A stretch of 64,000 bases of DNA from Cytospora piceicola (lineage: Eukaryota; Ascomycota; Sordariomycetes; Diaporthales; Cytosporaceae), in the NCBI GenBank assembly GCA_023375675.1, contig JALQBC010000027.1:248001-312000 (forward strand). The letters run 5' to 3'. The position numbers and the translations under genes were made by a program. The first letter of the stretch is position 1; each line of letters opens with the position of its first letter. The notes beneath the pieces are model-generated. The model searched no databases. It was given only the letters and a program-made list of their open reading frames with translations, and was not told where the DNA came from. This document shows, in pieces, positions 44,999 through 61,926 of this stretch.

Positions 44999-47900
44999 TC
45001 ACCGAACCTGCTTCTCGATCTTGACCAACAGCTTGCCTGCACTAGGTCTGCCGTGGGCGTCTTTCAGGTCGATGAATCGATATCCCTGCTGTAATCGATC
45101 GAGCCTAATGCAAGCCCAGGCGGCCAGCTTATCTTTCATGAGCCCTTCGTCTTCGATCTTGAACCTTGATTCAAAACAATGTTAGCATTATGACCTCAAT
45201 CTCACGTATTGACTGGCAGGGAACCCGTTGTCTCCAGCAGGAAAGTCCAGTGCCACTTGGCGACTCGACTGTCGGACGACGAAGCGACACCAACACGCGT
45301 CGACAGCAACTAGCGAAGCTCCCGGAAGAATTCGGTGCACCAGAGGCGCACGATCTCGTCTCGGATAGCTGCTCCAGAAGAGACGATCGATGAGGCAGGC
45401 CGAAGGGTGACAGGCACCGAATTACAGGCGTAACGTTTGTGCTGCGCTTCACAAGAGCAGAGGGTCCTGATGCGTCTCACTGATTCACATCGAATGCCAA
45501 CTCAGAAACGGTCTCATTTCCGTTCTCCACACCGGTGTGCGCCTGAGTTCTAGCCCCCGATAATTTCCTTTCAGCCTCACCGGGCAGACTTTGAAAACTG
45601 CGCTATGTAGAAGCTGAACCATCGGCTTGCATGGAGGACCCGTAATGGCAACACACTGGCGGCTCTTGTCCCATTAAAAGCGATGTGTCAAAAAGTATAG
45701 GACCCGTGTTATAGGGAAGGACGACGCCGTCAAGAAAAAACCAGTGAATGACAACGACACGAGGCAGGCATATCGAAAGGCATGGGAGGTGCGTTCTGCT
45801 TGGTATCACTGCACCACTGACTCACCTGACGAAGCTGAGTTCCTCCACCACGTCGTCAATTTCTGGGAATTCGAGGACCTGGCCAACCCCCCAGTCTGGA
45901 TTCTCGGTCTCGCTGCTCTTGGTCACAAGCTTATACTGGCCGTCCTGCGCGAGACCGCTCTTGATCGCCTTCTTCTCGTTGCGCTCCTCGGGCGTTTCCA
46001 CGTGGATCTCGCACTTTACAAAAGGCTTGAAACCGGTACTATCAGATGTGCTGGCAGTCGAGACTGTGCTGGCGTCGCTCTCGGAGTCATCGGACTCCCC
46101 AGGGAAGGGCAAATGTTGCCCAGCCAAGATGGTGATGCGGAATTTCTCCAGAGTTCGATGCTGTCCGGCCTCGGCCTGCGTCGCGGCGCTATCGCTGCCA
46201 AGGTAGCCCGGCGGCTTGAGTGCCCAGCCCTGCTCGGGCTCGAACATTGCGCTGTTCAGCATGATCGCCTCGTCAACGTGCGACCTCTGCCAGTTCAGGG
46301 CGACCATCTGGACGCCCTTCCGCCAGTAGATGGATGGGTCGAGGTTGGTCGAGCTCACGCGGGTGGAGTGCGGGTAGACCCGCATGAAGAAGTTGCGGTT
46401 ATGGACGAACATCTCCGCGTGCTTGGTCTGGTGCAGCTTCAAGATCTTGTACTCGTCGATCGAGAAGATGTGCGATAACGACTGAGCCGCCATCCCTGCA
46501 AAGTCTTTGTAGTGTTCGCTGTGCGTGTAGACGGCCAACCTGCCGAGCGCCTCGCGGATATTAGTCTTCGATTGCTTGGCGAGCTGGAGCTCGCCTCCCT
46601 GAGAGTCGGCGTCCCCGGATAGCCGCTCATCCTCAGATGCGGATCCGTCCTCGTCATTTGTGGACATGGTGGGCACTGTGAGCTGACTGCCTGACTTGGA
46701 CAGGCCACTGCTTGGTGCGGCTGGCTTCTTGACCTTCACAAGGATCTTCTCCATCAACTCTTCCAGCCTTGGTTGACGCTCATTAGGATTACAGTCCGCG
46801 AACGGCTCATCTAGGAGGTATTCGCCCCACTCCTCTTTCATTATATCGACCATCATGTCTTGTTGCTCGCCTGTGGCATGGACCTCCAAGCTCACGATCA
46901 GGGGAAGCTTGTTGGTCTTGAAGGCAGACTCCCTGATAACCCGACACACTTCTCGCAGTGGTATGCGTTTTGCGAGGCCCACATCGCCGAGCCCCTGGAC
47001 GGTGTGCGCATGCGTGACTTCAGGCTCTATTATACCCTGCCTGGGCTCCCTCGATTTTGATCGCGACCGAGACATAGGCCCGTCCTCACCCCGGCCCCTC
47101 CCGTCAGTGGACTGCACATGCCGGAGCGGTGGACAAATGTCGCCGGGACCTAAGAGGTCGTTCTCCAGGGACGTGGTGCTGTAACTCGCGGATGGGATGG
47201 CCAGGTGCAGCTGGCTCATACTAGCACTGGCAATGCCGAGCTTCGAGCTGTAGGCGCGCACAGGCTTGTTATCCTCGTGCTTGGACCCCCCCGTGAACGC
47301 ATGCCATTTCCGGTCGATCTTGCTGACGAACGATTGGGCCGCTGCCGGGAGCGAATGGATCGAGGTCGTCGAGAGCGCGGAGGCGTTCCTCTTGTGGGTA
47401 TACCGGGGGTCGTGGCGGCCGCTCGGCGACCGGGACCTGCTGGGCGTGGGCGTCCTGCTCCGCTCCGAGCCCTCGCCGTTCCAGACATCGATCTCCACGC
47501 AGCGGCAGTCGCCCTCCAGCACCGTCCGGTACGCCTCGGCGGACACCTCGCCGCTGAGCTGGTTGCCCAGGCCGATGTACGTGTTGTGGCTGCTGCTGAT
47601 GAAGTAGTTCGTGATGGGCTTCGACAGGTCCTTCCTGCCCGCCGGCCGCTGTGCCGCACTGTAGCCGTGCAGCCACACGTAGATGAAGTCGCCCAGGGCG
47701 TACCGCTCCTTCTCGAGGGGCCGCACCAGGCCGCCCTGCACGTCGGTGAGGAACTCCTGCAGCCGCTCCCTCGTCACGAAGTCCCCCTCGCGGCCGCGGA
47801 GGGACGTGAAGACGCGCTCTATGTGCCTGTGGGTGTACTCTCTCAACAGGGGCAGGTCGGAGTTGTAGGTGGGCGCGAATGGGGCGGCGCGGAGGTCGTC

Positions 47901-48263
47901 GATGGGCGACGTCAGCTCCGAGTCGTCGATCCCGGCTGTCGCTGTCGCTGTCGTTGTCGCGGTGCCGTCGTCGCTGTCGGTCGTCTTCACTGTGTACTCG
48001 GACTTGCTGTGCTGGTGTTGGCGCTGCTGCTGGTGGGGGGCCTGGGGGTTCGGCGCGGTGCCCAGGGAGACCATCGAGAAGAAATGTCGCCACGCCGTGT
48101 TGGCGCCGAACCTCGGGCTCGGCTTGGGCCCCCCGGAGCCTGGCGGCATTGGTGTTGGCGTTGGTGAGGCTGGTGTCGGTCTAAGTCTCGCTACGGTCGC
48201 ATCCTCGGTCCTGTTATCGGCGCCGGCTTCGGCTGCTTTGGCTCCTCCCCTATTTGTCGACAT
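44999..48263 (-). CDS. PLC1: Phosphoinositide-specific phospholipase C
   Basis: Exon 1 is 48,263-45,826 and exon 2 is 45,164-44,999, giving 867 residues. The intron is 661 nt (donor GTGAGT, branch GCTAAC, acceptor CAAG, codon AGG split 2+1). An EF-hand-like region lies at about 140-180. The PLC-X domain starts at KPITNYFISSSHNTY (His226) and has the second catalytic His in VTHAHT (His418). Between them is a Ser/Arg-rich insert of about 150 residues. PLC-Y shows FMRVYPHSTRVSSTNLDP, GVQMVALNWQ and WALKPPGYLG. The C2 domain runs over the intron: ELSFVR joins FKIEDEG, then WACIRLDRLQQGYRFIDL. It cleaves PIP2 to IP3 and diacylglycerol at the plasma membrane in a Ca2+-dependent way. Without the distant exon the C2 domain would be truncated. 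Confidence 0.92.
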
Positions 48264-50444: not shown

Positions 50445-50732
50445 ATGGCCGGGAAGAAGTCTCGCCGGGAATACGAGGCCGAGGTGCGCTCCTGGGGCTT
50501 CAACCACGTCTTCACCTGGTCAGACGGCCCCCACGCGCACTACAGCCCGCATTCCCATGCTGGCCTGACCACACATCTCATCCTCAGCGGCCAGCTGAAC
50601 GTCACGTATCCAAAGGATGAGAACCCTACAAAAGAGACCTTCGGTGTTGGTGACAGGCTTGACGTTGATGCGGGGAGGGTTCACGAGGTTTGGATGGGCA
50701 AGGAGGGCTGTACTTATGTTATTGGGGAGTAG
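50445..50732 (+). CDS. Small single-domain cupin protein
   Basis: This single exon encodes 95 residues covering one cupin barrel. The first cupin motif is DGPHAHYSPHSH followed by TTHLILSGQLNVTYP, and the second is FGVGDRLDVDAGRVHEVWMG. His residues of HAHYSPHSH and the later RVHEV, with a nearby Glu, could bind a metal. Small cupins of this kind are widespread in bacteria and fungi and their substrates are mostly unknown. No signal peptide is present, so it is cytosolic. The ATG at 50,445 has a purine-rich context (GGAAAATGG). It is next to the cell-death-type cluster but is not an obvious part of it. Confidence 0.8.
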   Translation: MAGKKSRREYEAEVRSWGFNHVFTWSDGPHAHYSPHSHAGLTTHLILSGQLNVTYPKDENPTKETFGVGDRLDVDAGRVHEVWMGKEGCTYVIGE

Positions 50733-51436
50733 GTCCGGCATCTTGCATATTGTACGGGTTGCTTGGAACGGTGGGTGCGACGAAGAACGACACGATGCAG
50801 ATGGGACGATGCAGGCTAGACGTCCGGGGAGGAAAGCTGTGTGTTGGACTCACCCACACTGTGGCCTTGATGGGAGAAGAAGATCCGCTCTAGCGGTGGG
50901 ACAGCCCTGAGCAGATCGTTGCAATACGTTCGTTCAGCCTATCTCGCTTTCACAACGGGCTGTCATTGCAAGAAGTCCGCGAGGCGTTCTTGGGAACGAG
51001 CAAGACAGAGTGAATGCTTCAGCATTCTACCACCTACGACGACATACTCCAGCCCTATCCATGGGCTCTGCTTCAATTATGAACCTTATGGAAAACCACA
51101 TTTGCAATGATATATGTAGCAATCTAACTCGACAACCCATACTTGTGCACACAGCAAAGCATCGCTGACTGTTTTTCAAAGATCTTGGCTTGTAAACTGT
51201 CCCAGCCCCTTCAATGTTGGGCTTGCATGCATGGTGTACCACACACAAGTTGGGCTTCCTGGGTGCGCGTTACCCAGACGCCCCAGGGTGCTCCAATAAC
51301 TTTTGCTGGTCAGAACAAGGCGCCCTCTACTCCCCGCTCTTGGGCTTTTTCTTCCTAACTTTCCAGTGTACTCGCCATGCTCGCACGTGTACACCATCCA
51401 GCTTGACGAAATTGTATGATACAAGATTGTTGCATC
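50733..51436. other. Intergenic, promoter of the gasdermin-like gene
   Basis: About 700 bp with no gene. The last part before 51,437 should hold the promoter and leader of the gasdermin-like gene; no specific site was recognised. Confidence 0.55.
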
Positions 51437-52288
51437 ATGTCAAACTTAAAGAAGACCTACTTCCTCTGTCCGAACTGGGACTACCACCCGGACGGCCCAG
51501 TGCAATTGGGCAACATCATCATATCCCCAGAGAGCCCAGCGTACGCTCTCAACGACTTCGAACGCTACCCCCCACCCGAGGGCTCCATCTTTCCTCCGAC
51601 TTCCAAGACCGGAGTGATTTGGTCGAGAGAAAAGTTCCGTTCCGGAAAGTACGGCCTATGGACCCAGTTCCTGTCCTTCGTTAGCGGCCTCGGTGTAGAC
51701 GCAAGCGTCGACCACAGCTCGTCTCTTGAGCAGACCTTCACTTTCGACTCGATCACCACGACCGAATTCTCACCAACCCCCGAATATCTGGCTCAGAGCA
51801 TGTCTGCGACTGCTGTTGTCGACTTTCTCAGAGCAAGCCGGTTCAGGAAGCATGTATACATGATCACAGCCCTGAAGACCGTTCACGGCGTGAAAGCGGA
51901 GGCTGAACATGAAAGATCGACTGAAGGAAAGTTGGGAGTAACTGTTGATGGCACTCCCAGTGGTTTGCCAGGCAGCGGCGGGCCCAGCATAGGGGGCAAG
52001 CGGACCAATCGGGATTTCACTTCCTTTGAGGGCTCGTCGGATTTTGTATTTGCTTACAGACTGCGGAAAATCATGACACATCGTTCAGGTGACATGAGCA
52101 ACAGTGAATACACCAAGGGGGCCATGTACGATGCGGAAGGACAGCCGATGACCGACCAAGATCTCCCTTTCATAGTGGACGGCTTAGCAGCGCAGGATGC
52201 GTCCGCCCATGACTTTGGCTGTGGCCACTCTGACGAGGTAGTAGACGGAGACGATCACTGTGTATGTGTCTGGCCGGAGGAAGAATAA
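51437..52288 (+). CDS. Fungal gasdermin-like protein (RCD-1/HET-Q1 type), putative pore-forming executioner
   Basis: This intronless gene encodes 283 residues from ATG 51,437; an in-frame ATG at 51,416 would add MIQDCCI. There is no signal peptide. The order of segments fits a gasdermin N-terminal domain: KTYFLCPNWDYHPDGPVQLG at the start, a beta-rich middle with TFTFDSITTTEFSPTPEYLA, the helix SATAVVDFLRASRFRKHVYM running into the strand MITALKTVHGVKAEAE, a Gly/Ser-rich loop, and FEGSSDFVFAYRLRKI, comparable to the last core strand of animal gasdermins. About 70 mostly acidic residues follow, as expected for a short releasable inhibitory tail. Length is close to HET-Q1. Convergent at 117 bp lies a subtilisin protease gene, the known kind of partner. 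In RCD-1/HET-Q1 the freed domain permeabilises the plasma membrane. The family assignment is by pattern, not by search. Confidence 0.65.
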   Translation: MSNLKKTYFLCPNWDYHPDGPVQLGNIIISPESPAYALNDFERYPPPEGSIFPPTSKTGVIWSREKFRSGKYGLWTQFLSFVSGLGVDASVDHSSSLEQTFTFDSITTTEFSPTPEYLAQSMSATAVVDFLRASRFRKHVYMITALKTVHGVKAEAEHERSTEGKLGVTVDGTPSGLPGSGGPSIGGKRTNRDFTSFEGSSDFVFAYRLRKIMTHRSGDMSNSEYTKGAMYDAEGQPMTDQDLPFIVDGLAAQDASAHDFGCGHSDEVVDGDDHCVCVWPEEE

Positions 52289-52405
52289 TCTCATCTATCC
52301 CCGTAATATAGATCAGGTTAATGGGAACAGACGTGGTGTGTGGCCCGAGATCCCCGACTGAAACTTGAGTACCCTAGGGTACCCAAGTATCAAAGCTTAA
52401 CTGTA

Positions 52406-55400
52406 TTATGTTTTGACTGGCAAACCACGTGCAATTCTCTTCATGACAGCCTGAATTACCTCCTCCTTCTGTCGCCCCCCAAAGAAATTCGAAATAGATA
52501 AAAGGACATCATAACCAGCCCTGCGCTCAGACATGTACTTAAATATATTTCTCATCTTGTCGTACTCCTTGAACTTCAGGGCTTCCATACGAGACATGAT
52601 GGTTTGTGCGTAGAACAAAACAAAAGCGGCCAGCCCAGCAGCTACAGGAGTGGAAAACGATGTCCCTGACCTTCGTGATTTCCATGGTCTCCGCGGCCAT
52701 GCGGACTCGACGGCCTCACCGAGTGTACAGAAGTTGTCCTTGTCTTCACGCGCTGTTGGGTTTCCCCGGATGCTATTCCCCTTCCCATCGCTAGCAAAAA
52801 TGCAGAACACGTCGTGGTGACAAGCTGGGAATGCCGGGGAAAGGCCATGCGCGCCGCCGTTGGACGCAGCCGCAAACATGAGGATTCTGTGCATACGGGC
52901 GTTGTTTATGGCCTCCAAGAGATGCTCATTCTCTTCAGGGAAGCCAAAGGACATCGAAATGATGTCGACCTTCCAAACGTTTGCTGCATGATTGATGGCC
53001 TTGAGACATTGGTCACTACTATCCCAGCAAGAACCGATGGTGACCGGGACCTTACCTTAGCTATCTCGCTTGGCTCGATAGGATTGAACTTTGCGATTCG
53101 GGCGATATATATATCGGTATCCGGTGCCATATCCAAAAGGAGATTGGCAATGTGAGTTCCATGTCCAGACGAGTCCCCAGCTCTGCGATCTTCCTTGCCC
53201 CCCAGGCCACCAACCCATGTCCGAACGTCCTTGATCCGCTCTTTTCTTGCTTGGATCAAGTGATGGCCGGTGTCAATGCCAGTGTCGAGTATGGCAACTT
53301 TCACCCTGGTCTGCTCATCAATAGCTTGGCTGAACACAAGTTCATAGGTACTCTGATGCTCTCTTAGGAACTTATCTGCGGATGTGCAACTGTTGAAAAC
53401 GCAATCAGCGCCAAGACCGAGATGAATCCTTCCTTGAAGCAACAACAATAGAGGTATTGAACAGTATGAAAAAAACAAACATACACATCGTTCGTGTAGT
53501 TGGACAGTATATCGTCATGAAAAAATCCAGCGATAGTACGATCCAAATTTTGTGTGTGCTGCAACTCCGCTTGAAGATTGATTCTGTTGTCCTCGCGAAT
53601 GGTTATGGGCTCAGACCAACTAGACATTCGAGGCCTCTTCCGTGGCGATGTCATGCCGAGATCAGGTTGTAACAATGATGGTCGATTCTGGCCAATATTT
53701 GATGACGCTGTAGAATACTCTACATATGGTCTTTCGATGACTGCATGTTCCTGCCGAGGCGGTGATAGTTCACGATTCTTTCGTTTGCTCGAAGACCGCG
53801 ATTTGGACTGCTCTAACGTCCTCTCCAACTTCTCGACAACATGCACGTAAATTTGCTCCCTAATTTCCAAGTCTGCCTCTTTTCCAGATGACTCGCTATG
53901 CCTCAGGGATTGCGCGATATTGCGATAGACCATGAGACATCCCCTGACAGCCTCAAGATAAGGACCGCTTTTTTCCACTTCCATTTTGTCTGCCGCAACA
54001 AGTAGTCTCGTCCAGGTCTTCTGGTTGATACCGTCATCATAGCTTGAGCTGATTTTGTGGCGAAGTTTGTCTCCATCGTCTATTTCCATCAGAAGTTTGG
54101 CGAAGGCAAGTAGAATTGGATGACCCATCTGGAATTCACGCAGCTTAGTCGAGGTGGGAATATCTGTGGTGAAGCCCAAATACGGAAGGCTAACATGAAC
54201 ATAATCGCCTTCCGCAACCGCGAAATATATGTTTCCCGAACCGAAGCTGGTGTCGAAGAAGTCCATGAGAGAGTGGCCTAGCTTGACGGCCAGTTCTCGT
54301 TTCTCCCTTGTGCCGAAGCGTTTAATTCGTATCCTCGATTTATTTCTCGTGGCGTATGCCGCGTTGATAGGTTTGAAAGCACCGTTGGATATCAAACGAT
54401 CAAGGGACTCCATAGGGACTTTGGCTCCCTGTCCTTGTTCCCACACAATACCTCTCAAGCTGTTCGATTGTTTATTTCCTTGAATCATCAGACGCAATGC
54501 TTCGTCTTGACCAGAATGTTGCATAAGCTCCTTACAGAGGTCATAAACGCTGGCGACATGGGCAACCCCATTCGCCCCCCTGGAGTAGTATCAGTTCTGT
54601 ATGGCCTCATACGCTACTGCGTCCATGGAGAAGTAACTTACTGAGACAAGCCGTAAAGAACTTCCTGCCAGCGATTCGAATCTGAACAAAAGTACCACAT
54701 ATGCAGCGTTGGATCTAGCAAGCTATCCTCCGCTCCCTGCGACACCTGCGGGCCCCCCGCCCCCAAGCGCAACTTGACTTCATGACGTGACTTGCATCTT
54801 TGTCCCTTGAAAAGAACCTGAAACGCATCTGTTGCTTGATCTCGTAGCTGCGTGTTCTCCCAAGGCTTGCCTCTGGACTTTAGTTTTGCAGCAGGGGCTT
54901 CATCACGAGGAAGGGGGAAAATCTTCAAGATGGAGATATTCCAACCCATCAATTTGTGCAGTGTGGTCCTGAGACTGGCGTCGTCTGGAAGCTTGAATAA
55001 TTTCCGAGATGGCCCAGTTGCCAGGTCGAAAACTTCGGAGTTTTTCGGATCCAGTCCATCAAGATACCGTGCTAATCCCTCTAATGCTGGATACTCGGAG
55101 TCCTCTACAGGGCCTCCGTCAGGGTCGACAAGGGAGAATTCTGCTCTAACACTGCTGTTGAGAAATCTGCACACTCCTCTGAATACATCGATGTGCTCGC
55201 TCTGCTGAAACACTTCCGTAGATGATTCGGCACCAGAAAATTCAAGGCCAACATTGAAGAGTATCGCCAATTCCGAGTCGAAAAGCTTCTCGTAAGGCCG
55301 CTCTCCACGACCCGGAAAGGGATTTGTGGGGTGCTGTGGTTCGTAAGGTCTTCTTCTCCGCGCCCAAAGCAAGCTGAGACGGTGTATCAAGCCCCATTCG

Positions 55401-55423
55401 GCAGATTTAATCGGGCAGGACAT
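52406..55423 (-). CDS. DUF7580-like domain plus subtilisin (S8) protease, HET-Q2-like
   Basis: Four exons, 55,423-54,642, 54,579-53,485, 53,389-53,056 and 52,999-52,406, join in phase to 934 residues. The N-terminal 500 residues or so are helical with FQVLFKGQRCKSRHEVKLRL and FGSGNIYFAVAEGDYVHVSL followed by GHPILLAFAKLLMEI, the marks of the fungal DUF7580-type domain found in NLR-like and HET-associated proteins. A disordered basic linker (SSSKRKNREL, SPRKRPRMSS) follows. The S8 domain is complete: Asp661 in VAILDTGID, His702 in SSGHGTH, Asn784 in AAASNGG and Ser851 in SGTSFSTP. No signal or propeptide is seen, so it is an intracellular protease. Its layout and its gasdermin-like neighbour match Podospora HET-Q2, which cleaves HET-Q1. 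The substrate here is inferred. Confidence 0.8.
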
Positions 55424-56004
55424 CTCCTATGTTTTCACTCCGGCAGACGATGCGGTTTGTGTCCTGAAATCTCAAATGTAACTCAAGGATAATATGAAAT
55501 GAAATCTTATCACAAAGATAGAAATCACTTGGAAAATCTCATGAGAGCTCCTTGCTCCGAGAAGATCTGGAGGAAAAACGGACGTCGAGATCTTAGAAGC
55601 GATGGGTGTCCTGATCCTAGCACAGCCACCCATGGTTCGCGTTGCACCCACGCCAGTACTGCGTGCAGCTGGCCAAGCTTTGTACAACCAATATTATGCA
55701 GCAATTGTTACATTGCATGCAGAAACCAGAAGATAAGAGCTACTTGGTGCGGCTTTTACACTATTATAGGTTCCTGGATCTAATAATCAAAACAGGAGGC
55801 CAACGCCACCATCCCTCCTGGCTGCCTGGGTTCAACGCGGTCACATGGCTTACTTGCATCATCTAGGTTCTAGTCCCTATTGTGCTCCTGTAATTATATG
55901 ATGCACCTTTGAGCGGGGCGACGGACGTGTCGACGGCCTAAGCTGACTCTCGATACTTCTCGCTGCTTCACACTTCAGATCCGGTTACCCTATGTACATC
56001 CGCG
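55424..56004. promoter_or_regulatory. Shared bidirectional promoter region
   Basis: The protease gene starts at 55,423 (minus) and the kinase-HET gene at 56,005 (plus), so 581 bp must serve both. No frame in between is convincing. Co-regulation is an inference from the arrangement. Confidence 0.5.
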
Positions 56005-59000
56005 ATGTCTTCATCGGGTGATTCGAATGGGGATTCTGATGAATCGATTTACAAGTTAAGTTGTGAATGCGAAGAGTCATTTGACACCCAAATTTCTCTT
56101 TCTGAAACCAGCGGCACTAGAGATCTATTCGAAGAATACCAACAACGATTTTCAATATGGACAGCGAATCTGGGTGTTTTTGCGCGTCCAAGCCAAAGCC
56201 TTGACAGAAGACTCAGAAACGCGCCCGGCTCACGAGACATAGTACTTCGACTTTTGGACATCTTGTGGGGAGCATTGCAACAGGGTGAGTAGTTTCGCAG
56301 CCTTTTTGACTTTGTATTGTTCATGAGCAGCCTTGAAACCCTAACCATTGGCTCCAGATGTCCGTAACCCAGTCCAAGCAAACCGGGAACACTGTGAAGC
56401 TCATGACACAGAGGCAACCTCTAATGTTGAGGTGTTTGAAGTCATTGAGGAGTCCCTTAGCAGCCTGAATCGTTACGGTGTTACAATTCGGCAAGCGTCT
56501 AGAGTTAACCTCACGGCAAGGGTCGACATATTTGCTTCCACCCTTCAACTTGGATCGTTTGAGGACTTGTGCACTATTTCAATCCGAGCTCTATATCCTA
56601 ACGTCAACGAAGCATTGGCTGATCGCCTCAGCAAATATATGACCAATCAGTTCGCAGCCAAGCTATTCTCAAAAACTCGACAAGAGGCTCTACAAAGTCA
56701 GCGGCCAAAGGAATCCAAGTCGGTGTCATCGTTGCCCACCATCAGTGAAACAAGCACACTGGAAAACATCGATATTGGAAATTATCAACCCTCATACAAT
56801 GCAGGCATCAACGCTCGACGACAAGATGAAAACATCCTGCACGCCCAATCCGACCATTCCTCACTCAACACAAATTTATTGAGAAATTTGACAACATCGC
56901 AACCGAGGAACAGCGGAACTGGTATAAAACCAGCCTCCTCCATCCACATGGGGCGTCTCGAATATCCTACAAAACCAAGCGCGCAAGGTAGCAGCCAATA
57001 TTCAAAATGCGATTGGTGTGGACAGCTGTTGCACGATCCGAGTGATGAAGACTGGAGGTTAGTTGTTACCCTTGTTGCTTCGATACCATTTCTTACTCAA
57101 CCCTGTGGGACAGGCGACACCTGAAAGAAGATTTCAAGCCGTATATCTGTATATCAGAAGATTGTGGTTCGGATTTTCCCAGCTACGCGACATTTGACGC
57201 TTGGTACCAACACATGCTGCACGAACATGGTGACCGCTGGCATAGAGACGTCTTCAAACCATATTCTTGGTTTTGCGTCATTTGCAATAATCACGAGGAC
57301 AACTTCACCAACTCACAAAGTGTCTTCGACCATATGCAGGTGGAACATCCAGACATCTTCAGCATCGTCCAGCTTCGCACCATATCCCGTCATAGCAAGA
57401 CCCAGGTGGCGAGGCCGAAAGGAGTATGCCTTTTATGTTCGAGCCCAATTGACCTTGGGCAGCTTCGTGATAGGAAGGGCTTGAGTTCTTCCAAAACCCA
57501 CAAGGAGACACTCCAAACAAGCAGCAAAAGTGCCCGACTTTCGAAGGAGATGAGATCCCCGGGCCCTCATATCACAGACTACAATGCCACCACTGATTCA
57601 GATCCACCACCTGAGAGCTACGAAGGGATGGAAACCTTGATTGGTCATGAAGCTCTAATGAAATACATTGCAGGACATATTGCCAAACATCTGAAGATGT
57701 TGATGCTTCTGACCATGCGGCTGGCGAATTTGCAAGAGATGGAAGAGGATTCAATAGACGAAATCGGGAGCGAAAGCGTTGAAGTAGCTGGTGAAAATTC
57801 CTCTCAAGATCCTGGTGTCAATGACGAATTCGAGCTTGGTACGCAAGCAAATAGCCCCATGATGGAGGATGATATCATGGAAAGCGAATTCGCAGAGACA
57901 ACGTCACAGCTCGGAATGGAAAACCCGCAGCAAGATGAACACAGCATACCCGAGTGCGAAGCGGACTGGACTGGGGTTCCACTCAATAAGTTTCCAGTGA
58001 AGGAAGACCGAATCCTGGAAGATTGGTATGATCATTCAGTGGACTTGGAGGACCAAATCCGCCGCAGCTTTGTGAACTCGGTATTCCCTGAAGACAGCCC
58101 AGTACAGAAATTCTTGCCTGAAGGTGCTGTGGATCGGATCATAACAAGGAGATCCATCATAAATGAGTTATGGTTTGATGGCGGCGTAACAGCATCGGAC
58201 GAAGACAGGGAACTCACAACAGCTGAGAATGACCTGGTTGAATACATCCTTACGTCGGCGAAGAAGATATTCACGATCAGCCTCATGAGCGGCTTGGCAA
58301 ATGTCCAACTGAAGAATGCAATGGTACACTTTAAGGAAAATCGTGTTTTGGACGGCCAATTACCCTTCGACATCCCCTTGAATGATACCCCTCACTCAGA
58401 TTTTTTTTTCCCAGATCGGCCGTGGACGAGACTACGAAAGGAGGATTTCATGACCGAGCAGTGGAAGCTCCTTGCACCTGTATTCCCCAAAGTCTTTGTT
58501 ACATTGGTGCTCAAGCAAAACCATATATTCCCGTTCACATTTGTGAACCAGGAGCGGAAGGAGGGCACCTTTGGTGCTGTGTACCAAGTTACGATTCATG
58601 AAGCACACCAGGAGGAACCCGTGCGGAAGGTTAGCTATACCCTCAATGTGCATTGCATACCAAATAAACCGTTTTGGTTTCGTATACTGACTGCCTTCAG
58701 GCAAATGGCGACCTTGCCAACGTCGCTATCAAAGAACTCAAGGCCACGGGCCAGAAGGGCGACGCGACGTACAAAGAGTGGCAAGCTGAAGCCAAGGCCC
58801 TGGAAGAGACGAGCAGCCTCAAGCACCCACATGTGGTTCAAGCCATGGCCACCATATCAAAAGAAAAGAGGCACTATTTCATGTTTCCATGGGCAGATGG
58901 GGGAAGCCTTCGGGATCTCTACGAAAAAAACCCGAAACCCAATCTTGGACCGAGCCTCATCATGGACATCATTCAACAAATGGTTGGACTGGTCGACGCA

Positions 59001-61926
59001 GTCTGTGCCCTTCACAACTTCAAAAATAAAGGGGCATATCGTCATGGCGACTTGAAGCCCGAGAACATCTTGATATTTCCAGGCAAGGACAACACAAAGG
59101 TGGGAACCTGGAAGATTGCAGATATGGGCTTGGCGAAGCACCATGTTGCTGCCACTCGTGCTCGTGGACCGACCAGTACACGCCATGGAACACCATCTTA
59201 CGAACCTCCCGAGGCTTTTCTCAACACGTCGTCCGCGCGATCTCGTCTTTATGATATTTGGTCCATGGGTTGCATCACTTTAGAGCTCATCATCTGGCTG
59301 CTTTACGGCTACGACGAACTCAACAAGTTCAACGGCAACATGAAGAATACCCTGGGACAGCCGAAATGGTACTGGGAACGTGTAAATGGGTCCAACGTCG
59401 CCAGGGTTCACCCCAATGTGGCAGCATGCATAGCTCACATCAAAAGGGATCCAGAATGCCAGATTAAGGATGAGAATGGGAACGAGAAAAAGACAGCAAT
59501 CAGTGAACTCATCCAACTCGTCGAAACGAAACTACTGGTAGTGCCTCTTCCCCCAAACAGCAAAACCCCGGAACAAGATCGGAATATCGATGCCGATGTC
59601 ACCAATACAGCAGGACCAAGTTTAAAAGTTACCCGCCCGGACTCAGAAGCGCCTGATGCTTCGGTGCCTAGTCCAACGCTGGGGCAGTTTCGAGCCACAG
59701 CTAAGAATTTTCATGAAATACTTCTGAACATCCAGCTGGAAGGTAAGAAACGTGAGACTTACCTATTTACAGGCAAAAGCAGGAAAGGTGTCACAGGGCC
59801 GCCACTGGATGAGCCAAAGTTGTTGCCACAATCTGTACCCAGGAAGGTCGATTTGATCAAGCGACTTTCAGAGAGCTCTGAAAAGAGCTCTGATAACTAT
59901 GAATATCTGATGACTAGAAGCAGCTTGGTTTGGGAGTTTCCAGTCGATAATGTCTTCGCTACGACAGTTCTCGGGGATGGCAGACTATGGGAAAAAGTGA
60001 TGCAGCCCTCATCGCAAGCTGCACAGCTTTGCAGAAAGTGCAGCAAAACGGACTTCTGGGCTGGGGAAATCCTCTTTACGGAGGAAGTTAGCAGTCTCGA
60101 AAGGGAATCTTCGTTTTGCGAATTTTGCAGCCTGCGATGGAGTTTGTGCAAGCGCTTTACTCCCGCCGGCGTGCCGACCGTCTTATTTGACAGACTGGAG
60201 TCCACCTTGAGACTCAATGAGAGCTACCCGCCGGTGTTGACAATTCAAAGAGGTCCAGGTATGTCTGAAAGCGATCTGATAAGAACCATATTGGATTATA
60301 GCTAATGTCGAAACCTTAATGAAGACTCGAAGGAGAGTCCCGGGCCGCACTCTCCGTTGCAGATTGGCCTTCCTCAGCTTCCGGAAGCTGGTAGTGACTA
60401 CCATTTTGAAATACTCAGGAATTGGCTGAGTGTCTGTGATCAAGATCACATTCAGTGCAAGATACCAGCAGTCTCTGGCTTGCCCACGAGACTAATTTGT
60501 GTTGGAACCCAAAAGTCACCGGTCGTGAAGCTGTACGAGACCAAACCAGGCGATAATATCAAATACTTCGCGCTGTCACATCCTTGGGGAAGCCCTCCGC
60601 ACTTTTGTACCTTCACAACGAACATCCAAGAGCACAAGAAGAACATAAACTTCGACAAGTTGCCTCGGACATTCCAGCACGCAATTATAACAACAAGGGG
60701 TCTAGGTGTCCAATACCTATGGATCGATTCGCTCTGTATTATCCAAGGGGCACACGGGGACTTCGAAATGGAGGCAAAGCGCGTGGAAGATGTCTTCAGT
60801 CAAGCTGACTGCGTACTCGCGGCGAGCTCTGCTACCGGCCAAGCGGACGGGTTCCTCCACCCACGAGAAACTCGTAATTATCTCACTGTCCAGCAGGATG
60901 GTCGACCGCCGGTTTACATCTGCGATTATGTTGACGACTTCAACAAACACGTCCGGGGAAGCATCCTCCATCAAGGGGGATGGGCTCTCCAGGAGAGGGC
61001 GCTGGCACGGCGGACGATCTACTTTACCAGCAAGCAAACCTACTTTGAATGCGGTGATGGTGTTCGCTGTGAAACCATGACGAAGATGTACAAGTAAGCA
61101 TTTTAACTATTACGTGACCGATCATATTTTTAGTGCTGATACCGGTCTTTACAGCAAGCTTGAGTCTTTCCTCGGCGATCCTGCCTTCCCAAAGGTTGCC
61201 ATAGAGTCGTCTCTCGGCTGGCAAATCCACCTGTATCAGGATCTCTATATGCGATATTCCAGGATGAGGTTCACTCATCCACAGGACCGGCCTATAGCCA
61301 TTGCCAGCCTCGAAAAGCGCCTTATTCACGGTTTTGGAGCACAGGGTGGCTTTGGTGTGTTTCACGGAGACAATCCTGGTCAACTCCGGCGCGGTTTGCT
61401 ATGGCAACGAGCGTCAGATGTGGATAGACTAAAAGTGATCGACTTCAGAATCACCCATTCCCTAGCTTCAGGCAGCAGGACGCCTCCGACATGGTCCTGG
61501 ATGGCCTATGAAGGCGGCATCGAGTATCCATACCTGCCTTTCGGTCAGATCGAATGGGAAGCAGACGAGATTCTCCCGGTCGGAGTGTGGGATGATAATA
61601 AGGGCTCTGCTGCAGACTTTGGGCTGAGCGTTGTTGCTCGTGACTTCAACAATGCTGCCACGCCAACCGGAAGGATAATACTCGATATCCCGAACAAAAC
61701 AAACCCGCCGGTGCCAGCTTTGAAATGTGTTATCCTGGGACGGCTGATTTCGGGGCGACAGCGGGAACAGCCCATGGATACCAGGATTCATTTCATCTTG
61801 TTAGTGACCACTGGTACCTCGCCAGCGGCCCGCGATGAGCCAGTTTACCATAGAGTGGGAGTTGGCTCTGTGCCTGGTAGTTGGATACAGTTGGACGGTC
61901 CGGTGAAAGTGGGAAAGATTCTGTGA
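56005..61926 (+). CDS. Zinc finger - protein kinase - HET domain fusion protein
   Basis: Six exons (56,005-56,284; 56,358-57,057; 57,114-58,629; 58,701-60,258; 60,325-61,093; 61,134-61,926) join in phase to 1,871 residues. Order: helical N-terminal domain with YQQRFSIWTANLGVFA; C2H2/Cys-rich fingers from Cys311 (CDWCGQLL, YICISEDC, WYQHMLHEH, WFCVICNNHE); an acidic linker; a kinase at about 800-1,070; a linker with Cys-rich CRKCSK and CEFC; and a HET domain at about 1,430-1,600 (YFALSHPWG, YLWIDSLCIIQ). The kinase looks active: GTFGAV loop 811-816, Lys843 (VAIKELK), HGDLKPEN with Asp949, DMG 973-975, YEPPE and DIWSMG. HET domains trigger incompatibility cell death. A fusion of both is unusual. 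Intron 5 is only 40 nt, the weakest splice call; without it the C-terminus would be shorter. Confidence 0.8.

Follow-up and report, generated by a model that had tools for sequence, protein, structure and literature searches.

Two-gene clusters that combine a gasdermin with an S8 protease have been published for fungi (PMC10989679, PMC10197012), and HET-Q2 is reported to activate HET-Q1 by cleavage, likely at P1 F238 of 278 (PMC10989679). According to a review, the S8 or CHAT domains that control fungal gasdermins are fused to repeats, to NOD-like receptor (NLR) parts, or to predicted kinase-like domains (PMC12881547). Here we describe a locus of the fungus Cytospora piceicola, located in a stretch of 64,000 nucleotides that we call the window (bases 248001-312000 of contig JALQBC010000027.1, labeled C22 below; other labels beginning with C are further contigs of the same genome). 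The window carries a gasdermin-S8 pair that is a further member of the known two-gene cluster type, and divergent from the protease gene lies a third gene whose relatives recur beside DUF7580 genes elsewhere in the genome. That the gasdermin and the protease are the core of a cell-death module we consider likely; that all three genes form one cassette, in which a C2H2/kinase regulator stands head-to-head with a pseudokinase-protease that would cut the adjoining gasdermin, is a proposal to which we give about even weight.

The gasdermin gene is an uninterrupted open reading frame (ORF). We placed its start at the MSN at 51437 and not at 51416, in agreement with the start of most aligned homologs, and divided its product as follows, using profile alignments and an AlphaFold2 (AF2) model.

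51437..52288, plus strand: gasdermin gene, 283 amino acids (aa), intronless; bGSDM profile, family profile and predicted fold
51437..52084, plus strand: gasdermin pore-forming core, residues 1-216; end of the profile alignment and AF2 model
52085..52168, plus strand: linker, residues 217-244, putative cleavage region; low model confidence
52115..52129, plus strand: K-G-A-M-Y motif, residues 227-231, first candidate protease recognition/cleavage site; alignment conservation
52169..52285, plus strand: acidic C-terminal tail, residues 245-283, putatively autoinhibitory; sequence and AF2 model

Searched against Pfam, the 283-aa protein returned no match at E<=1, and against the PADLOC bGSDM profile it scored E 3.5e-7; 31 of the 34 aligned members of the family, the window protein among them, match that profile at E <1e-3. 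A profile built from the 34 sequences matches RCD-1-1 (E 4.7e-19), RCD-1-2 (E 2.2e-18) and the HET-Q1 pore structure 9uv9 (E 1.5e-11), and the window protein as a single sequence reaches RCD-1-2 at E 4.8e-5. The profile alignment extends to about residue 212 with RCD-1 and to 220 with HET-Q1. In the AF2 model, which has a mean predicted local distance difference test score (pLDDT) of 73.2, the bacterial gasdermin fold is matched, and gasdermins are the top rows in both Foldseek and VIA; 9uv9 is not among the Foldseek matches listed, which is uninformative either way. By profile and predicted fold, the 283-residue protein is a fungal gasdermin, and the preliminary description of this DNA, which had proposed a gasdermin core with a short acidic tail, agrees with the bGSDM match, the family profile and the Foldseek result.

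The protease gene converges on the gasdermin gene, with a stop-to-stop distance of 117 base pairs (bp).

55423..52406, minus strand: protease gene, 934 aa, four exons; splice model
55423-54642, 54579-53485, 53389-53056, 52999-52406, minus strand: protease exons; splice model
53808..54862, minus strand: DUF7580 (PF24476), approximately residues 188-518, spanning exons 1 and 2; Pfam match and fold
52592..53307, minus strand: peptidase S8 domain; Pfam match and catalytic motifs

Its introns measure 62, 95 and 56 bp and are all GT..AG. The S8 match (PF00082, E 6.4e-6) falls in the last exon, and the catalytic set is complete: D661 (DTGID), H702 (GHGTH), N784 (AASNGG) and S851 (SGTSFSTP). DUF7580 was matched on two exon frames with E 2.2e-47 and 1.4e-8 (162.7 and 35.2 bits; cut-off 27), and we think that this part of the protein, as modeled, is probably kinase-like. 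A protein search returned 97 homologs at E<=0.001, of which the best full-length relative is 39% identical. P0074, a candidate for folding DUF7580 without a protease, was dropped when S8-like sequence was visible in it by eye. In the NLR-type protein P0062 of Trichoderma gamsii, which has a NACHT region, the C-terminal S8 is 54% identical to that of the window over 32% of the query; with P0062 as an example, the S8 protease seems, at the level of sequence, to be swapped between sensor types. A CHAT protease was not seen at the window locus, and the genome's single CHAT match lies at C9:648490.

The preliminary description had read these two genes as a HET-Q1/HET-Q2-type pairing, and most of it holds: the gene models reproduce the 117-bp gap that it gave, its numbering of Ser851 within a full Asp/His/Asn/Ser set is correct, the N-terminal fungal domain that it named is indeed DUF7580, and the interpretation is supported by families, fold, catalytic residues and recurrence in the genome. 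What needs amending is the extent of the module. The gasdermin/protease pair stands, but the interval 51437..55423 omits the divergent third gene at 56005-60305.

To place the pair in its genomic context, we surveyed linkage in this single genome (43.6 Mb in 99 contigs), and all counts from genome searches are lower bounds. The window gasdermin as query gave eight matches at six places (C22, C41, C9, C57, C15 and C2); a second gasdermin query, P0037, led to the same six, and the bGSDM profile to three of them. DUF7580 gave 12 matches at ten places, and S8 gave 30 match rows. At six of the DUF7580 places an S8 match lies 438-653 bp behind DUF7580 on the same strand, and five of the six gasdermin places are found 307-706 bp, match to match, from such a DUF7580-S8 gene (four convergent, one on the same strand). 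At C2, a distance of 7.5 kb, which includes third-gene sequence, separates the gasdermin from the S8 match in a DUF7580-S8 gene. Seen from the other side, a gasdermin is in the cluster at 6/6 DUF7580-S8 places as against 0/4 DUF7580 places without S8, the latter checked by the genome-wide search and a locus scan (3 kb alone at C14:691522). A scan of 18 loci of 3.4-9.9 kb around S8 matches that lack DUF7580 detected no gasdermin at E<=0.1. The four S8 motifs are readable in the four other adjacent protease genes as well, with GHGTF for GHGTH at C9. Identity between paralogs is 27-39% for the gasdermins and 35-43% for S8; given these values, the linkage has outlasted long divergence, and any common origin must be old.

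We find it scarcely credible that the genes are chance neighbors or relics, and the preliminary description had likewise judged the pairing hard to explain by chance. A random-placement estimate for at least five of six gasdermins falling within 1 kb of one of six S8 matches is about 5e-17, a rough figure that ignores shared descent; both reading frames in the window are open, and a full-length gasdermin found elsewhere, P0002, is 80% identical to that of the window.

Comparison of the genome's own loci against one another brought out the third gene.

55424..56004, no strand: upstream region common to the divergent protease and third genes, 581 bp; gene models
56005..60305, plus strand: third gene, 1366 aa; splice model, and relatives that diverge from DUF7580 genes at further loci of this genome
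56005-56284, 56358-57057, 57114-58629, 58701-60305, plus strand: third-gene exons; splice model
58560..59294, plus strand: protein kinase domain of the third gene; PF00069, E 1.6e-26

Its product consists, in order, of an N-terminal domain, three C2H2-like finger motifs recognized by eye (the finger region has no Pfam match), and a protein kinase in which the motifs GTFGAVY (Gly loop), VAIKEL, HGDLKPEN and DMG are present. When a piece of the C41 third gene served as query, nine places were returned at E<=0.01, and at each of them the relative diverges from a DUF7580 match, with gaps of 162-2927 bp. A C2 piece found eight of these nine, and the window piece found all nine (several at weak E) together with C7 (E 0.41). 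An N-terminal piece from C57 found four places (C57, C9, C41 and C22), all known third-gene loci, and a longer C87 query added C6:749230 and C14:991306 as well as C79:567431 (E 0.044), the last of which adjoins DUF7580, together with weaker C9 places above 0.1. Third-gene relatives are thereby head-to-head with DUF7580 in 9/11 cases at E<=0.01 (C41 or C87 query), or 10/12 with C79; conversely, nine of the ten DUF7580 places have a divergent third-gene relative, or all ten if the weak C79 match is included. The matched pieces are approximately 25-45% identical between loci. A homolog search in proteins returned five.

The third gene is associated with DUF7580, and at six places S8 and gasdermin come on top of this. 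It goes with DUF7580 and not with the gasdermin as such, because it occurs at DUF7580 places without S8 or gasdermin. These DUF7580 genes without S8 (L029, L030, L047 and L031; one on C87, two on C14, one on C79) are each accompanied by a third-gene relative in divergent orientation (a weak match at C79), and no gasdermin was found there. One arrangement of these facts, for and against which we see equal reason, is that regulator and DUF7580 are a conserved core pair to which an output is attached, namely S8 and gasdermin at six places and none recognized at four. As for a part of the third gene in the death module, we would put it near the midpoint between likely and unlikely.

Several observations weigh against the three-gene reading. 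Third-gene relatives at C6:749230 (E 1.9e-10) and C14:991306 (E 1.6e-4) have no detected adjoining DUF7580, and none was seen by eye in C6:745501-748000, the stretch before the former; moreover, the third gene is present also at DUF7580 places that lack protease or gasdermin. The kinase-like character of DUF7580 is read from a model that covers exon 2 only, for which Foldseek gave no match <1e-3. A further S8 match, C2:951353, lacks DUF7580 and lies about 5.7 kb from the C2 gasdermin. Distances among gasdermins and among S8 domains over the five adjacent pairs correlate with r 0.45, and 21 of 120 permutations do as well; one-to-one co-evolution of gasdermin and S8, as tried by this mirror-tree comparison, was not significant and was set aside. 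Finally, the linkage may be partly inherited from one duplicated ancestral cluster.

In an alternative account, the locus is an ordinary two-gene cluster like HET-Q1/HET-Q2, and the third gene is a passenger from an ancestral DUF7580 locus with no role in killing. We hold this to be possible but rather doubtful. The two-gene gasdermin/S8 system is established, as reported (PMC10197012, PMC12881547), and the third gene accompanies DUF7580 with or without S8 and gasdermin. A passenger would be expected to become lost or separated, however, and the linkage of third gene and DUF7580 has been kept at 9/10 places at the low identities given above; at C2, in addition, the gasdermin lies on the third-gene side and not beside the protease.

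The part of the third gene that follows the fingers differs between loci, being a kinase at C22, TPR (tetratricopeptide repeats) at C87, and a DUF7514 frame at C14:334472. At C2 we infer a kinase after the fingers also; the finger and kinase pieces there, read on either side of about 950 bases, appear from strand, order and similarity to form one gene. At C57, C9 and C15 the reading covered the third gene up to its 3' part. The C41 third gene is apparently fused to, or followed by, a degenerate S8 (L012:915-2056, minus strand) with DMG for DTG, HGTQ for HGTH and no clear Asn box. This variety bears on whether the third gene might be a brake whose kinase keeps the DUF7580-protease off, such that the protease would be released by its loss or mismatch, in the manner of an allorecognition pair. 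The 581-bp upstream region could co-express activator and brake, and the kinase motifs of the third gene look active, with no HRD or DFG visible by eye in DUF7580; nevertheless, a slot filled by a kinase at C22 and presumably C2, a degenerate S8 at C41 and TPR at C87 better fits a sensor or effector, and we regard the brake as unlikely.

If the protease cuts the gasdermin, the cut would fall between core and tail. The tail comprises 39 residues with 11 D/E and no K/R, has three predicted strands, and is preceded by a linker in which pLDDT is <50 at residues 220-229 and 231-240. We counted conservation in the 33 ungapped rows of a 34-row alignment (one row is without the region): G228 is kept in 29/33, A229 in 28/33, M/L230 in 32/33 and Y/F231 in 25/33, followed by variable, gapped columns at 236-243. 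The other gasdermins of the same genome read KGAMF (C41), TGAML (C9), KGAML (C57), KGEMY (C15) and HGELY (C2). A second candidate P1 is F245, a position with F or L in 26/33 rows; counting against it, F245 is not kept in the C41, C9 and C15 paralogs, and among the genome's own paralogs F is found at C57 only. We predict a cut within 217-245 and favor KGAMY (P1 M230 or Y231) over F245 as its most likely site.

It is also conceivable that the protease has another substrate and that the gasdermin is restrained otherwise, e.g. through an allelic partner of the RCD-1 type. Neurospora RCD-1 is reported to be activated without cleavage (PMC12881547), and the distances of the gasdermin/S8 pairs match weakly. 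Yet the acidic tail with its predicted strands stands behind a low-confidence linker that carries a conserved motif, and gasdermins are found only at those DUF7580 places that have S8; we therefore consider this alternative quite improbable.

In the three-gene reading that we propose, the gasdermin would be made in an inactive form, the acidic tail 245-283 restraining the core 1-216, and the probably kinase-like DUF7580 part would suppress the S8 protease as long as no signal is received. The third-gene product would act as a regulator that senses the trigger or relays it to the DUF7580 protein, the trigger presumably being non-self fusion or infection. Once activated, the protease would cut the gasdermin in the linker 217-245, at KGAMY (M230/Y231) or otherwise after F245, and the released core would build pores in the plasma membrane, killing the compartment.

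According to a 2025 review, it is a major open question what kind of stimuli set off the putative sensors in these fungal death pathways (PMC12881547). A gene recurring head-to-head with the DUF7580 protease gene is a concrete candidate for the upstream part, and, if our reading is true, the third-gene regulator would supply fungal gasdermins with the upstream sensor or relay that has been missing. Six parallel cassettes, whose third genes differ, are available within one genome, and the conserved linker motif offers a direct test of the cleavage site.

Outside the cassette, a cupin-like ORF (50445-50732; Cupin_2 below cut-off) lies just upstream of the window gasdermin. The nearest named gasdermin relative, VSDG_08920 (P0004) of Cytospora chrysosperma, is 78% identical over 75% of the query, and its model opens with a close copy of this ORF; because the cupin-like ORF heads VSDG_08920, the gasdermin neighborhood is common to C. 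chrysosperma. The VSDG_08920 model itself looks misannotated, with the cupin-like ORF fused in front and the tail absent. Parathielavia hyrcaniae is the source of both a gasdermin (P0015) and a protease (P0061) among the homologs; both entries list a longest contig of 862,196, which is the one hint of linkage in another species. Also on the gasdermin side is a large, ordinary phosphatidylinositol-specific phospholipase C gene with X and Y domains (45822-48263, minus strand).

In the available parts of the sources on which our literature search was based (PMC12881547, PMC10989679, PMC11138114, PMC9815663, PMC9119436, PMC10890737 and PMC10197012), there was no mention of a third partner of fungal gasdermins, and the search found no paper on DUF7580, nor on a fungal gasdermin with C2H2. 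The recurrent divergent third gene is new relative to this literature, the primary survey (Clave 2022) lying outside its scope.

Compared with known systems, the locus resembles bacterial gasdermin clusters, as far as these are described, in having a protease gene alongside and in its bGSDM profile and fold match. To our knowledge, bacterial gasdermin-protease clusters have no DUF7580 or C2H2-kinase partner. RCD-1-1/RCD-1-2 of Neurospora crassa are described as two allelic partners acting without cleavage, whereas the window has an adjoining protease gene and an acidic tail. The reported Q2L proteases, with S8 joined to repeats, NLR or kinase-like parts, are comparable to the DUF7580-S8 protein of the window. 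HET-Q1/HET-Q2 of Podospora anserina is likewise a gasdermin with a short C-terminal tail adjoining an S8 protease gene, and HET-Q1, at 278 aa, is of similar length to the 283 aa of the window gasdermin. HET-Q2 is reported to have 388 aa, whereas the S8 domain of the window is instead C-terminal in a 934-aa DUF7580 protein, and the cluster further differs from HET-Q1/HET-Q2 by the presence of a divergent third gene.

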